Shown piece after piece: positions 9,487-33,423 of a stretch of DNA of 64,000 nt. The notes below the pieces were generated by a model. That model was not told the DNA's origin. It did not search any database and saw only the letters and a program-made list of their open reading frames with translations. Position 1 is the stretch's first letter, and the number at the start of each line of letters is the position of its first letter. Source of the DNA: Halolamina salifodinae (lineage in GTDB: Archaea; Halobacteriota; Halobacteria; Halobacteriales; Haloferacaceae); the NCBI RefSeq assembly GCF_017874235.1, contig NZ_JAGGLC010000003.1, forward strand, positions 124,001 to 188,000, given 5' to 3'. Position numbers and translations under genes: made by a program.

Positions 9487-10446
9487 ATGACCACACCGTT
9501 CAGCGGGGTCTTCCCCGCCATGACCACTCCCTTCCGGGAGGACGAGAGTATCGATCACGACCGACTCGCCGCCGACGCCCAGCGCCTCGAAGCCGCCGGC
9601 GTGGACGGCCTCGTCCCCGTCGGCTCCACCGGCGAATCGGCGACGCTGACCCACGACGAACACGCCGAAGTCGTCGAGACCGTTGTCGACGCCGTCGAGG
9701 ACGTGTCCGTCATCGCCGGCGCCGGGTCGAACGCGACTCACGAGGCCGTCAGCCTCGCCGAGGACGCCGAGGAGGCCGGCGCCGACGCCATCCTGCTGAT
9801 TTCGCCGTACTACAACAAGCCCGAGGCCGCGGGCTACCTCGAACACTACCACACCATCGCCGACGCGGTCGATCTGCCACAGATCGTCTACAACGTCCCC
9901 TCGCGAACGGGCCGGAACGTCCCCGTCGACGTGGTCGCCGAACTCGCCGAACACCCGAACGTGCAGGGCTACAAGGCCGCCAGCGGCGACCTCGGCCGTG
10001 TTTCTGAAGTCATCGAGCGCACGCAGGACGAGGAGTTCTCGGTCCTCTCGGGCGACGACGGCCTCACGCTCCCCATCTGCTCGCTGGGCGGGACCGGGAC
10101 CATCAGCGTCGTCGGCAACGTCGAACCCGAGCGCACGGGCGCGCTCGTCGGCGCCGTCGCCGAGAACCAGAGGTTCTCGGCTGCCAACCAGAAATCTTCG
10201 ATTTCTGGTGACGTCGCGGAGGACGACATGGGCCGGGCCCGTGACCTCCACTACGAACTCGCGCCGCTGATCCGCGAACTGTTCACCGAGACCAACCCCA
10301 TTCCGGTGAAGGAGGCCATGGCCATCCGCGAGGATCACCCGCCGCACGTTCGCTCGCCGCTGACGCGCCTCTCCGAGGGGAAGCGTGAGGCGCTGGCCGA
10401 CGCGCTGGCCGACCTCGAGGACGGCACGCCGGAGGTGGACGCCTGA
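9487..10446 (+). CDS. dapA: 4-hydroxy-tetrahydrodipicolinate synthase with hairpin-derived insert
   Basis: DapA condenses pyruvate with aspartate semialdehyde, the first committed step of the diaminopimelate lysine pathway. The 319-residue TIM-barrel protein has the STGES loop (47-51), catalytic Tyr135 (YNVPSRTG) and the Schiff-base Lys163 in GYKAASG. Residues about 226-244, from ENQRFSAANQ through ISGDVA, interrupt a helical region near the C-terminal domain and have no counterpart that I know in DapA. They are encoded by two perfect hairpins (10160-10209), so an element appears to have inserted in frame. The ATG at 9487 is preferred; the frame upstream has no family similarity. Its stop overlaps the dapB start. 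Confidence 0.92.
   Translation: MTTPFSGVFPAMTTPFREDESIDHDRLAADAQRLEAAGVDGLVPVGSTGESATLTHDEHAEVVETVVDAVEDVSVIAGAGSNATHEAVSLAEDAEEAGADAILLISPYYNKPEAAGYLEHYHTIADAVDLPQIVYNVPSRTGRNVPVDVVAELAEHPNVQGYKAASGDLGRVSEVIERTQDEEFSVLSGDDGLTLPICSLGGTGTISVVGNVEPERTGALVGAVAENQRFSAANQKSSISGDVAEDDMGRARDLHYELAPLIRELFTETNPIPVKEAMAIREDHPPHVRSPLTRLSEGKREALADALADLEDGTPEVDA
10160..10213 (+). repeat. tandem-hairpin element E1, in frame inside dapA
   Basis: Two hairpins lie in tandem: CCGAGAACC-AGA-GGTTCTCGG (10160-10180) and ACCAGAAATC-TTC-GATTTCTGGT (10187-10209), separated by CTGCCA. Both stems are perfect and both loops are 3 bases. The reverse complement shares CGTCACCAGAAATC, then GATTTCTGGTTGGC, with element E2 at 32941; only the loop differs. 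The segment is about 54 bases (18 codons) and keeps the reading frame. Confidence 0.75.
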
Positions 10447-13402: not shown

Positions 13403-14397
13403 CCGAGGTGCCGTTCGAGAAGTACGACGGTGCGGGCAACGACTTCGTCGTGGTCGATTCGGAGGCCGACCCCGTCGAGGACCGCGCGGCGTTCGCCCGG
13501 ATCCACTGCGACCGCGAGGCCGGCGTCGAGAACGCGGCCGGCGCCCGCCACGGCGCCGACGGCGTGCTGTTCCTCTCACTGGACGAGGGCGCCGACCCCG
13601 CCGAAGTGACGATGACGCTCGTCCAGCCTGACGGCTCCATCGCCGAGATGTGTGGCAACGGCGCGCGCTGTGTCGCGGCGTGGGCCGCCGACCGGTCCGG
13701 CCTGTCGACGTTCGACATCGACACGCCCGCTGGCACCCGCCGCGCCGTCGTCGATAGCGACGAGATTGCGGTGGAGATGGGCGAACCGACGTTCGCCCCC
13801 CAAAATGTCCCGCTCGCGGGCGACGACCCCTTGATCGACGCGACGCTCGACGAACTCGCGGACACCCCCGCAGTGGGCCACCGAGTGACCGTCGTGAACA
13901 CCGGCGTTCCCCACGCCGTCGTGTTCGTTAACGACGTGGACGCGGTCGACATCGACGCCGTTGCGCCGCCGATCCGGCACGCCGCGGCGTTCCCGGAGGG
14001 CGCGAACGTGACGTTCGCTTCGGTGAGTGCGGACCGAGCAGGCGCACTCGACGCTGCCCCCGATGGCGACGGCTTCCGCCAGCGCACGTTCGAGCGCGGT
14101 GTCGAGGGCGAGACCCGGGCCTGCGGCACCGGCGCCGTTGCCGTCGCCGCCGCGGCGAAGCGACTCGGCCGACTCCCCGACGGCGCCGCCGACTCGGAGT
14201 GGATCACCGTCTCGCCGCCGGGGGGCGACCTCGGCGTCGCCGTACCGGACGACGAGCCAGCACGGCTTCGCGGCCCGGCCGAGAAGCGCTTCGACGGACA
14301 GCTCTCTGTTCCCGAGGACGACCGTATCGCCGGCGTCACCGGCGAGGCGGCGCTGGGTGCCGACCGGCTGAACGAGGATCCGGGGAGCGAGCGATGA
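13399..14397 (+). CDS. dapF: diaminopimelate epimerase
   Basis: DapF converts LL- to meso-diaminopimelate without cofactor, using two cysteines. Both are present: Cys85 in MCGNGARC and Cys242 in ACGTGAV. The N-terminal FEKYDGAGNDFVVVD also matches. At 332 residues it is longer than bacterial DapF (about 275); the extra length is mostly an acidic C-terminal tail after residue 290 and small loops. The stop overlaps the dapE start (ATGA). Confidence 0.94.
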   Translation: MTEVPFEKYDGAGNDFVVVDSEADPVEDRAAFARIHCDREAGVENAAGARHGADGVLFLSLDEGADPAEVTMTLVQPDGSIAEMCGNGARCVAAWAADRSGLSTFDIDTPAGTRRAVVDSDEIAVEMGEPTFAPQNVPLAGDDPLIDATLDELADTPAVGHRVTVVNTGVPHAVVFVNDVDAVDIDAVAPPIRHAAAFPEGANVTFASVSADRAGALDAAPDGDGFRQRTFERGVEGETRACGTGAVAVAAAAKRLGRLPDGAADSEWITVSPPGGDLGVAVPDDEPARLRGPAEKRFDGQLSVPEDDRIAGVTGEAALGADRLNEDPGSER

Positions 14398-15722
14398 GCT
14401 TCGACCCGGTCGACTTTCTCGAAAACGCGGTACAGGACGACTCCACTGAGGAGGTGAGCGGAACGCGTGACCTCCTGCTCGCGGCACTGCGCGAAGCGGG
14501 CCACGACCCGCACGTCGACGTCGACGAGTGGAACTCGTCTGCTGGCCAGAACGCGCCGCGTTCTGGCGAGGTTGCCAAGAATCGAAGGTTCTCGGCTACC
14601 CGCGGGAAGGCAAAGCCTTCCTGCGACGCCGCCGGGAACGTCCGTGTCAGCCGTGGATCCGGATCGCCACATCTCGTCTTCAACACCCACATCGACACCG
14701 TCGCGCCCCACATACCCTTCGAGCGCGACGACGATGCGGGGCGGATCCGCGGCCGGGGCTCCTGCGACGCGAAGGGCCCGCTCGCCGCGTTGCTCTCGGC
14801 GTTCATCGACGCCGACTGGGACGGCGACGGAACGCTCACGCTCGCGGTCACGCCCGACGAGGAGGTACTCTCGACGGGCGCTCACGCGCTGATGACCGGC
14901 GACATCGCTCCCGGCGGCCCGGGCGAGCCAGGCGCGAATGTCGATCCGCTCCCTGAGGCCGACCCAGCGCCGGACGCCTACATCGTCGGCGAACCGACGG
15001 GGCTGGATGTCTGTACCGCCGCCCGCGGGCGGTTCGAAGGCACAATCGAGATCGAGGGCGTCGCGGCCCACGCCGCCAGTCCCGAGTCGGGGGTCAACGC
15101 CGTCTCCGCCGCCGGGCGACTGCTCGGTGCGCTGGAGACGTTCGACAACGTCGACGCCCACCCGCAGTTGGGCGAGGCGACGCTCGTCCCCACGGGTATC
15201 ACGGGTGGCGAGTCGACGAATCAGGTCCCTGCTGGCTGTGAGATAACGATTGACCGGCGGAGCGTTCCCCCAGAGACCGCTGAGGGGGTCCGCTCGGCGC
15301 TAGCTACCCGCCTCGAGGCGACGCTGGCTGGCGACGCCCCCGAGGGCATCCCCCGGGCCGGCGACGACGCGTCGGTCTCGGTCTCGCTGACCGAGCGCGA
15401 GACGCCGTTTCTGGAAGCGTTCGCGACCGATACCGACGAGCCGGTGGTCTCGGCGCTCGCGGATGCTGCGAAGCAGGTCGGCGAGGCCCGAGAACTCGGC
15501 GAGCATGGAGCGGTTCGTCCGTTCGGCGCGGCGACGGAGGCATCGTACTTCGCCCCGGCGCCGACGGTGGTGTTCGGGCCGGGCCACCTCGCCGACGAGG
15601 AGGGGGCGGTCGCCCACGCCGAGCGCGAGTACGTCGACGTGGCGTCGGTTCGTGCGGCGGCGACGGCCGTTCGCGCGGCGACAGAGCGGCTGTTGGGTGC
15701 CGAGGGCGCGCTCGCGCGCTGA
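14394..15722 (+). CDS. dapE: succinyl-diaminopimelate desuccinylase with hairpin-derived insert
   Basis: DapE removes the succinyl group to give LL-diaminopimelate. This is a 442-residue M20-family zinc enzyme with ligands in NTHIDTV (His99, Asp101), GSCDAKG (Asp125), and catalytic Glu156/Glu157 in TPDEEV. Residues about 47-79, from NSSAGQNAPRSG through KAKPSCDA, split the early DEW...GNV strand region and are not part of the M20 fold as I know it. They are encoded by three consecutive hairpins at 14545-14625. The ATG at 14394 overlaps the dapF stop. It is the last gene of the operon; no N-succinyl-DAP aminotransferase is encoded here. Confidence 0.9.
   Translation: MSFDPVDFLENAVQDDSTEEVSGTRDLLLAALREAGHDPHVDVDEWNSSAGQNAPRSGEVAKNRRFSATRGKAKPSCDAAGNVRVSRGSGSPHLVFNTHIDTVAPHIPFERDDDAGRIRGRGSCDAKGPLAALLSAFIDADWDGDGTLTLAVTPDEEVLSTGAHALMTGDIAPGGPGEPGANVDPLPEADPAPDAYIVGEPTGLDVCTAARGRFEGTIEIEGVAAHAASPESGVNAVSAAGRLLGALETFDNVDAHPQLGEATLVPTGITGGESTNQVPAGCEITIDRRSVPPETAEGVRSALATRLEATLAGDAPEGIPRAGDDASVSVSLTERETPFLEAFATDTDEPVVSALADAAKQVGEARELGEHGAVRPFGAATEASYFAPAPTVVFGPGHLADEEGAVAHAEREYVDVASVRAAATAVRAATERLLGAEGALAR
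14545..14625 (+). repeat. tandem-hairpin element E3, in frame inside dapE
   Basis: Three hairpins follow each other, all with 3-base loops: GCCAGAACGC-GCC-GCGTTCTGGC (14545-14567), CCAAGAATC-GAA-GGTTCTCGG (14575-14595, with two wobble-compatible pairs) and CGCGGGAAGGC-AAA-GCCTTCCTGCG (14601-14625, one G-T). The second shares GGTTCTCGGCT with E1 in dapA and is read in the same frame there (RFSA). The first is a compensatory variant of the E1/E2 stem CCAGAAATC/GATTTCTGG. Confidence 0.72.
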
Positions 15723-32843: not shown

Positions 32844-32867
32844 TCACGGCGCAATCGCGCGCCGTGA
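32844..32867. terminator. strong hairpin between convergent genes
   Basis: TCACGGCGC-AATCGC-GCGCCGTGA has a perfect 9-bp stem. It could bound the transcripts from either side. Its flanks (GGTCACG, GCCGTGATTC, TTCAGTAC) match the ends of the repeat units that follow, so it may be a third, shortened unit. Confidence 0.4.
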
Positions 32868-32875
32868 TTCATTAG

Positions 32876-32942
32876 TTCAGTACACGATCACGGCATAGGC
32901 TCCGAGCAGCCGACACAGGGTCGGCTGCTGGTCACGTGCCGT
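32876..32942 (-). repeat. repeat unit R1
   Basis: The unit begins TTCAGTACACGATCACGGCA and ends GGTCACGTGCCGT, enclosing the hairpin AGCAGCCGAC-ACAGG-GTCGGCTGCT (32905-32929). R2 shares both outer parts (CAGTACACGA-C-CACGGCATAGGC; GGTCACG-GCCGT), while the hairpin in the middle differs in sequence but not in position. Confidence 0.6.
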
Positions 32943-32995
32943 CACCAGAAATCTCCGATTTCTGGTTGGCTAACGGGAGCTTCGCTCCCGTGAAC
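32941..32995. repeat. tandem-hairpin element E2, intergenic
   Basis: ACCAGAAATC-TCC-GATTTCTGGT (32944-32966) and ACGGGAGC-TTC-GCTCCCGT (32973-32991) are separated by TGGCTA. It is homologous to the reverse complement of E1 in dapA over CGTCACCAGAAATC and GATTTCTGGTTGGC. It interrupts a repeat joint that is intact at 33065-33082, which outlines an insertion of about 52-55 bases. Confidence 0.72.
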
Positions 32996-33002
32996 GTGAT
33001 CG

Positions 33003-33068
33003 GTCAGTACACGACCACGGCATAGGCGCCGTACTCGCGACACGGAGGTCGCTCGAGGTCACGAGCCG
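33003..33068 (-). repeat. repeat unit R2
   Basis: The second copy of the unit. It has the shared ends GTCAGTACACGACCACGGCA and GGTCACGAGCCGT, with a different, shorter inner hairpin (GCGAC/GTCGC). It runs directly into GTGATCGGTCAGTAC at the 3' end of the HTH gene, so that short sequence occurs at each unit boundary. Confidence 0.6.
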
Positions 33069-33075
33069 TGATCGG

Positions 33076-33423
33076 TCAGTACTCCTCGTACGCCAGCGTC
33101 ATCAACCAGTTCGAGAACGCCTCGGACTGGGGATCGACCTCCTCTTCGCCGATGAAGGGGGTCAGCATGTCCCCGGCCATCAGCAGCGAGAACTCCAGGT
33201 CACGGGTCCGGGGTTTCAGCAGATACGTGTTGTGCCCGCTGTACACCGCTTCCTCGCGCTGGATCAGGTCCTGTTCGGCGAGGGATTCCGCGATGCGGCT
33301 TCCCTTGCGCGAGGAGATGTCCAGTTCCTTCCAGAAGTCGCTCTGGTAGATCCCGCCGGAATCCCGGACAAGCTCCAGCGCACGCCGCTCGTCTTCGCTG
33401 AGGTCGAACTCGGCCGCGCTCAT
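33076..33423 (-). CDS. winged-helix transcriptional regulator
   Basis: This 115-residue protein has an N-terminal winged helix (about 8-75): LSEDERRALELVRDSGG, then SDFWKELDISSRKGSRIAESL as helix-turn-helix and the wing around REEAVYSGHNTYLL. The remainder is a short helical tail. It resembles small MarR/Lrp-like archaeal regulators. The target is unknown. Its 3' end abuts the repeat array; its start faces the glutaredoxin gene divergently, 86 bases away. Confidence 0.75.
   Translation of the reverse strand: MSAAEFDLSEDERRALELVRDSGGIYQSDFWKELDISSRKGSRIAESLAEQDLIQREEAVYSGHNTYLLKPRTRDLEFSLLMAGDMLTPFIGEEEVDPQSEAFSNWLMTLAYEEY

Follow-up and report, generated by a model that had tools for sequence, protein, structure and literature searches.

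The pair of hairpins that lengthens dapA in this DNA is probably a copy of a palindromic element dispersed throughout the haloarchaea, which carries no gene of its own, would spread as single-stranded DNA and, inside genes, would be filtered by selection. This copy (E1) had been singled out in a sequence-only reading of the window, i.e., the whole 64,000-nucleotide stretch analysed here, as a small mobile palindrome able to enter genes with the reading frame kept. The observation was confirmed and its interpretation supported by exact empty sites, many copies, co-varying stems and 14 host genes; to it the analysis adds the spread across the order, the unit of 57 bp, a reading frame common to the inserts and a rule for the loops (GNA or TNC). 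As regards mobility, the presence or absence of the element between species is established, and the movement itself, like the way of moving, is what we infer from that distribution. Rickettsia and other bacteria are known to have palindromic inserts that lengthen proteins in frame, and the haloarchaeal element is their archaeal counterpart, occurring in most haloarchaeal genomes searched and showing empty, single and double alleles of one gene within one genus. Because this allele series between congeners is exact, the spread of REP-like DNA without a known transposase and the gain of protein loops become testable in a genetically tractable group. The sequence-only reading knew of no description in haloarchaea, and none was found in the open-licence text of PMC, a search that could miss one published elsewhere; words starting with "halo" are absent from the accessible portions of the RepRanger paper (PMC12306157) and of a hairpin survey of 118,019 genomes (PMC13155455).

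Occupied and empty sites

E1 (positions 10156–10212, minus strand, 84.5 bits with the covariance model R1) is one 57-bp unit, GTC-hairpin-TGCCA-hairpin-GAC, located in the gene for 4-hydroxy-tetrahydrodipicolinate synthase (dapA, 9487–10446, plus strand; PF00701, TIGR00674). The model places it on the minus strand, on which the spacer reads TGGCA, and dapA reads it on the plus strand as VAENQRFSAANQKSSISGD. The two hairpins, GCCGAGAACC-aga-GGTTCTCGGC (10159–10181) and ACCAGAAATC-ttc-GATTTCTGGT (10187–10209), each consist of a 10-bp stem and a 3-nt loop and are separated by the 5-nt spacer TGCCA (10182–10186), common to the family. Both are perfect and in frame in the DapA ORF, as originally described, the first being one pair longer than was then reported. 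The 57 nt fold as DNA with -20.2 kcal/mol (z = -7.4), a value equalled by none of 200 shuffles. The sequence CAGAAATCNNNGATTTCTG, with up to three mismatches, occurs at exactly two places in the window (chance mean 0.03), E1 and E2, the latter being an array outside genes (32938–32998, plus strand) with hairpins at 32944–32966 (10 bp) and 32973–32991 (8 bp); the match noticed earlier between E2 and the reverse complement of E1 lies at 32940–32970, the loop excepted. E2 is surrounded (32860–33090) by another family of repeats outside genes, about 70 nt long (...GGTCAGTACACGACCACGGCATAGGC...), which recurs at G000:C3:100163-100529, G005:C1:1036135-1036450 and G006:C1:61650-61880.

The 19-residue insert was found in 2 of 28 inspected DapA orthologues, those of the window's own genome (G000) and of the congener G005, a rarity that the sequence-only reading had anticipated. 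The set comprises 27 of 30 fetched loci that were aligned (L079, L091 and L097 were not extracted) plus the congener G003, compared by eye; 25 of the 27 aligned proteins lack the 19 residues, and G003 likewise. The dapA gene of G003 (G003:C1:1395745-1396643) is split over two reading frames. The empty site in G002 reads GGCGCC-GTCGCCGAG-GACGAC, the filled one in the window GGCGCC-GTC[hairpin-TGCCA-hairpin]GAC-GTCGCGGAG-GACGAC. The unit of G005 has stems and spacer identical to those of the window and different loops (AGA/AAA, TTC/GAA), within flanks that differ by 5–23% in 60-nt windows; the inversion of a loop (TTC in G000, GAA in G005) is a single case. By alignment to 2yxg, the insert falls at LEGDFEKAR. 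The AlphaFold model of DapA (12 sequences from the 30 fetched loci) has a mean pLDDT of 59.6 and, since this value drops below 50 from residue 190 on, is uninformative on the insert.

The seven genomes of the genus display a series of rlmE alleles, with no unit in five of them, one 51-nt unit in G002 and two units (108 nt) in G000; the empty site of G004 reads GAACTCGAC-GCCGAG, against GAACTCGAC-GTC...GAC-GCCGAG in G002. The cleanest site is an IS605-like end, empty in L111 (GCGGGT-GGGGCTT) and filled in L166 (GAGGGT-GTC...GAT-GGGGCTT) by exactly 57 nt, with flanks nearly alike and at most one repeated base. Among the loci examined, six such ends, which we take to be IS605-like, are filled and three are empty. 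They are one case of complementary flanks around an array; flank palindromes as a general target were considered and discarded, as flanks complementary over at least 8 nt occur in 14 of 121 arrays (against 2 of 121 control pairs), a minority.

A second gene of the window, dapE (succinyl-diaminopimelate desuccinylase, 14394–15722, plus strand; NF006402; first base inferred from an in-frame ATG), contains a partly decayed 105-nt array (14520–14624, minus strand), probably the E3 of the sequence-only reading, which adds 35 residues, VDEWNSSAGQNAPRSGEVAKNRRFSATRGKAKPSC, at a site empty in G001, G005 and G006. In-frame inserts with an empty orthologue were also found in an FAD/NAD oxidoreductase (G000:C3:96194), in an ATP-grasp ORF (G000:C3:194088-194150; VRGSDAPASQPEARSGSGD), in dapF of G005 (a comparably long but unrelated insert occupies this site in G001) and in a glyoxalase-like ORF of G001, at a site variable in length anyway. 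The repeats found at the edges of the inserts, i.e., GACG at rlmE, GTCGC at dapA and GACAGCGAGG at G000:C3:96194, might represent short duplications of the target. MITEs are defined by terminal inverted repeats of 15–30 bp recognised by a transposase; the element differs from them in having two separate hairpins and in showing no fixed-length target duplication at rlmE, dapA and the IS605-like site.

In a tree built from the dapA and rlmE regions, G000 pairs with G001 (support 0.70; 0.985 for the dapA region alone) and G005 with G006 (1.00). Both genomes with a filled dapA, G000 and G005, thus have a sister without the unit (G001 and G006, respectively); for rlmE, filled in G000 and G002, close relatives are likewise empty. 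Units must therefore often be lost precisely or enter one and the same site repeatedly. The two filled dapA genes of G000 and G005 would reflect either two entries at a single site or frequent precise loss.

Architecture of the unit and its distribution

The general unit is GTC-hairpin-TGGCA-hairpin-GAC, which measures 57 bp, or 19 codons, when both stems have 10 bp. Single units occur as well as head-to-tail series (GAC-GTC), so that along an array the spacers alternate between a 5-nt TGGCA-like and a 6-nt GACGTC-like one; arrays of one to five hairpins are found in the window's own genome. In the flanks of 121 arrays, the left 3 nt are GTC in 56 and the right are GAC, AAC or GAT in 85. The stem letters come from a small set (ACCAGAAATC, ACCAGAACGC, ACCAGAAGCC, GACGAGAATC, GACGAGAGCC, GCCGAGAACC and others), the outer portion being fairly constant and the inner tip variable.

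The stems co-vary. In 33 units, both sides have changed at 12 of 20 pairs, against at most 6 in slid controls, a lenient test given that the units had been picked for perfect stems. When stems were anchored only on the outer 3' arm and the spacer (n = 117, a set biased by the many loci that had been fetched via a perfect palindrome), 94 were perfect, 13 had one mismatch, one had two and nine had four or more. The third pair from the loop in these anchored stems is A-T in 57, C-G in 36, G-C in 14 and another in one; at the second and third pairs, both sides depart from the commonest pair in 37 and 50 cases, with 4 and 1 non-Watson-Crick pairs, respectively. In 800 kb sampled blind to the element, seven of nine anchors were perfect and the other two look like chance. 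The loops are GNA or TNC in 84 of 139 cases, against 10.1% for trinucleotides of the background and 35 of 217 for triloop hairpins standing alone, and are closed by a C-G pair in 132 of 139, compared with 98 of the 217; in other genera the corresponding figures are 74 and 122 of 123. DNA mini-hairpins with a GNA loop (C-GNA-G) are described as extraordinarily stable in the passage available from PMC4686876. Since GNA/TNC loops closed by C-G are those of an ultra-stable DNA mini-hairpin, folded single-stranded DNA is likely to be the working form of the element. RNA folds of the element are also very stable compared with shuffles (z about -7), and an RNA form may exist as well.

Further copies with co-varying stems, which the sequence-only reading had expected, are numerous. 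With up to two mismatches allowed, ACCAGAAATCNNNGATTTCTGGT (the second hairpin) occurs 38 times in the window's own genome and the reversed control pattern not once, and an exact copy of CCAGAAATCNNNGATTTCTGG is present in all seven genomes of the genus. R1 (E ≤ 0.01) matches 131 of 146 genomes of the order, belonging to 53 of 56 genera, copies per genome being counted on both strands among at most 36 scored candidates. Among named organisms, hits were obtained in Halolamina pelagica, Halolamina rubra, Haladaptatus sp. DYF46 and Halocatena pleomorpha. In a phylum-wide sample, 21 genomes of the same order match and at least three do not, while outside the order 4 of at most 124 match, all in family f24. 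Three genomes of this family (G197, G206 and G213, with loci L195, L196 and L197) are AT-richer and carry serial triloop hairpins (ATC-ttc-GAT type) with other spacers, possibly the same kind of element. The element pattern was found in two Halocatena plasmids; one exact pattern had no match in viral contigs, and none in phages. The blind 800 kb sample, 200 kb per genome, contains 16 places, seven in G000, six in G005, two in G006 and one in G001.

This distribution bears on an account without any mobility, in which hairpins would arise repeatedly in place by fold-back synthesis and resemble each other through the repetitive codon usage of haloarchaea (GTC GAC GAG). The first arm does sometimes resemble the target (GCCGAG in dapA; GAGGGAC/GAGGAC at G000:C3:96194); the outer stem letters, the TGGCA spacer and the order of the hairpins are nevertheless common to dispersed copies and across genera, and R1 matches far fewer genomes outside the order, which makes this account very improbable.

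Copies inside genes and their reading frame

The 16 places of the unbiased 800 kb comprise seven in genes (dapA twice, dapE, dapF, the oxidoreductase, the glyoxalase and the ATP-grasp ORF) and nine outside. The nine outside genes, together with the fact that RNA folding is no less stable than DNA folding when measured against shuffles, would suit a functional RNA or a protein-binding site (terminator, mRNA processing, etc.) maintained by selection, with coding copies as accidents. We regard this as improbable, in that presence varies between sister species, 7 of the 16 copies lie in genes, the loop rule suits DNA mini-hairpins and, in the window, no Rfam family except a tRNA reaches its gathering score.

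In total, 14 host genes have an in-frame array matched by R1, with empty orthologues for seven of them: dapA, dapE, dapF, rlmE, truA and the genes for a uracil-DNA glycosylase, an ABC ATPase, a DUF58 protein, the ATP-grasp ORF, the oxidoreductase and the glyoxalase, besides ORFs in L014, L048 and L050. The set was drawn from surveys none of which looked for a frame; frame-directed peptide searches of L001, L158 and L192 were not counted, with the exception of L001, the G000 copy of rlmE. Among 130 arrays, a set drawn largely by one hairpin, both flanks are coding-like by codon use in only 11, a score under which four hosts (dapE, dapF, the glyoxalase and the ATP-grasp ORF) went unnoticed until compared with empty orthologues. 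R1 (E ≤ 0.01) does not match two further pairs of hairpins that lie in coding-like sequence around G001:C1:1057142 and 1116507.

Coding units add about 16–38 residues, nearly always in one and the same of the six frames. This frame is clearly used in 13 of the 14 host genes, ending in ANQxxxxSGD or a variant (L014 is too decayed to call), and in all seven in-gene copies of the unbiased sample. Its peptide is a hydrophilic linker, V-DES-x-LSSANQ-x-x-x-SGD, free of the FLV- or FWL-rich peptides of the other frames. Stop codons occur in this frame in one of 33 units and in the other five in 4, 5, 12, 7 and 33; with three of those five largely open, avoidance of stops cannot be the whole reason for the choice. 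Array lengths are multiples of three in 5 of 10 cases within genes and in 34 of 63 elsewhere, hence no more often in genes, a comparison in which the edges of decayed arrays are hard to call, and the argument on the frame is based on the translated inserts. A 57-nt modular unit with strong hairpins might also be cut from the mRNA or bypassed, leaving the extra codons (peptide VAENQRFSAANQK) untranslated. This is extremely unlikely, as nearly all coding copies use one of the six frames, stop-free in 32 of 33 units, and a single stop-free frame only makes sense with translation.

The exceptions to the shared frame are TnpB ORFs (OrfB_IS605; L171, L172, L176 and L181, from four genera), which read another one. 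In these ORFs the unit follows the zinc-ribbon region, as RRHQNSKSSGWRTRRFASRQ in L171. Two units are found in one DDE transposase ORF of Haladaptatus sp. DYF46 (L110, 1631–1691 and 1873–1935), and the second, in opposite orientation, truncates it (DVTRNL and then a stop). The frame pattern and its exceptions are the outcome expected of a selection filter after blind insertion. In G000 and G005, dapA, dapE and dapF lie close together in one lysine-synthesis cluster and each is hit in one or both species, either by chance or as a hot spot.

Mode of spread and known relatives

The main rival, which we consider unlikely, is a REP/RAYT-type system in which non-autonomous hairpins are mobilised in trans, on single strands, by an IS200/IS605 (Y1, TnpA) transposase. 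Several features point in that direction, i.e., hairpins with DNA-friendly loops, arrays in IS605-like ends, units in TnpB ORFs that match OrfB_IS605, arrays beside a Y1 transposase gene at two places in other genera (G158:C5 and G045:C106) and Y1_Tnp in five of the seven genomes of the genus. The Y1 transposase does not track the element, though: of 18 genomes that contain the element 10 have Y1_Tnp, as do 3 of 7 without the element (G086, G097 and G107, where R1 found none), and Y1_Tnp was not found in the element-rich G018, G078, G113, G119, G053 and G161, of which G113, G053 and G161 are incomplete (63–77%). R1 gave no match at E ≤ 0.01 in the surroundings of 10 tnpA loci from the genus (8 intact, 2 broken; of 19 match rows), and no constant tetranucleotide precedes the insert at the empty sites read. 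A partnership with the Y1 transposase is accordingly not supported. As for a REPtron, i.e., a Y1 gene flanked by palindromes, none was found at these 10 loci, against the two cases of adjacency in other genera.

In the explanation preferred here, that of a dispersed element without a gene of its own, spread would need no protein encoded by the element. What spreads would be single-stranded DNA, laid bare during replication or repair and folded back into C(GNA)G mini-hairpins; template switching would copy the element, keeping the arms complementary and redrawing the tips, and the copied hairpin strand would be captured at a break. Selection would then remove inserts that break proteins, leaving the hydrophilic, stop-free linker frame. 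The step of copying via a folded strand during replication or repair, with template switching that keeps the arms complementary, is by itself plausible, at somewhat less than an even chance. More doubtful, and put forward tentatively, is a transposase-free class of mobile DNA whose twin C(GNA)G hairpins, in single-stranded form, would use template switching for their own copying and repair, redrawing tips and loops, and would regularly add 19 residues to essential enzymes of archaea in a single, pre-adapted frame.

Among known repeats, the element resembles CGTC-REPs and Rickettsia palindromic elements. In the passages on CGTC-REPs in Di Nocera et al. (2013; PMC3733652), these have an unpaired CGTC (or TGTC/CCTC) at one end, 8–9-bp stems with A-T at the first and second positions and 4–5-nt loops, form head-to-head dimers mostly with spacers of 20–100 bp, rarely cluster, occur in five bacterial phyla without a dedicated transposase and have some copies in genes, including tRNA pseudouridine synthase genes. 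Short palindromes, an unpaired CGTC head (the haloarchaeal A1 consensus nnCGTC precedes the first stem), a short tail, heterogeneous stems and copies in genes (here truA) are shared features; as regards a dedicated transposase, Y1_Tnp does not track the haloarchaeal element. Unlike in CGTC-REPs, the haloarchaeal stems mostly have 10 bp and start with AC or GA, the loops have 3 nt (GNA/TNC), and the hairpins are tail-to-tail, 5 nt apart, with heads sharing GACGTC and with arrays being common; the CCA of the CGTC-REP tail is held by the spacer TGCCA/TGGCA on one strand only. The element is therefore outside the stem, loop and dimer definition of that group. The same passages place some Rickettsia palindromic elements among the CGTC-REPs and report the in-frame insertion of Rickettsia palindromic elements in genes of probably working proteins (PMC3733652). 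The analogy with the latter, drawn in the sequence-only reading, holds for behaviour, namely in-frame insertion in 14 predicted-functional host genes, and not for the structural definition of the group that takes in some of them; the host domain differs (archaea here).

Enterobacterial BIMEs, too, are mosaics of hairpins in alternating orientation, separated by short spacers of defined types; unlike the haloarchaeal arrays, they use GTAG-type REPs with a RAYT partner and lie outside genes.

In Haloquadratum walsbyi, PATEs and SMR-A have been described as small mobile repeats without a transposase, SMR-A being about 110 bp long with terminal inverted repeats and entering near-terminal palindromes of IS605-type elements, and PATE ends resembling IS605 ends (PMC3119063, in the portion available). 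Similarly to SMR-A, some haloarchaeal units sit in IS605-like ends; unlike PATEs, the unit ends in GTC/GAC and the IS605-like sequence lies outside it. An identity of SMR-A (HqIRS42/43/55) with the twin hairpins is not supported. A dispersed repeat of about 117 bp found in a probable H. walsbyi genome (G010:C3; eight copies in 400 kb, e.g., L204:3506-3624), which may or may not be HqIRS42/43/55, is built differently, with inverted terminal ends AGTGATTAGT...ACTAATCACT and no hairpin array. In 400 kb of this probable H. walsbyi genome, R1 itself matches two places at E ≤ 0.01.
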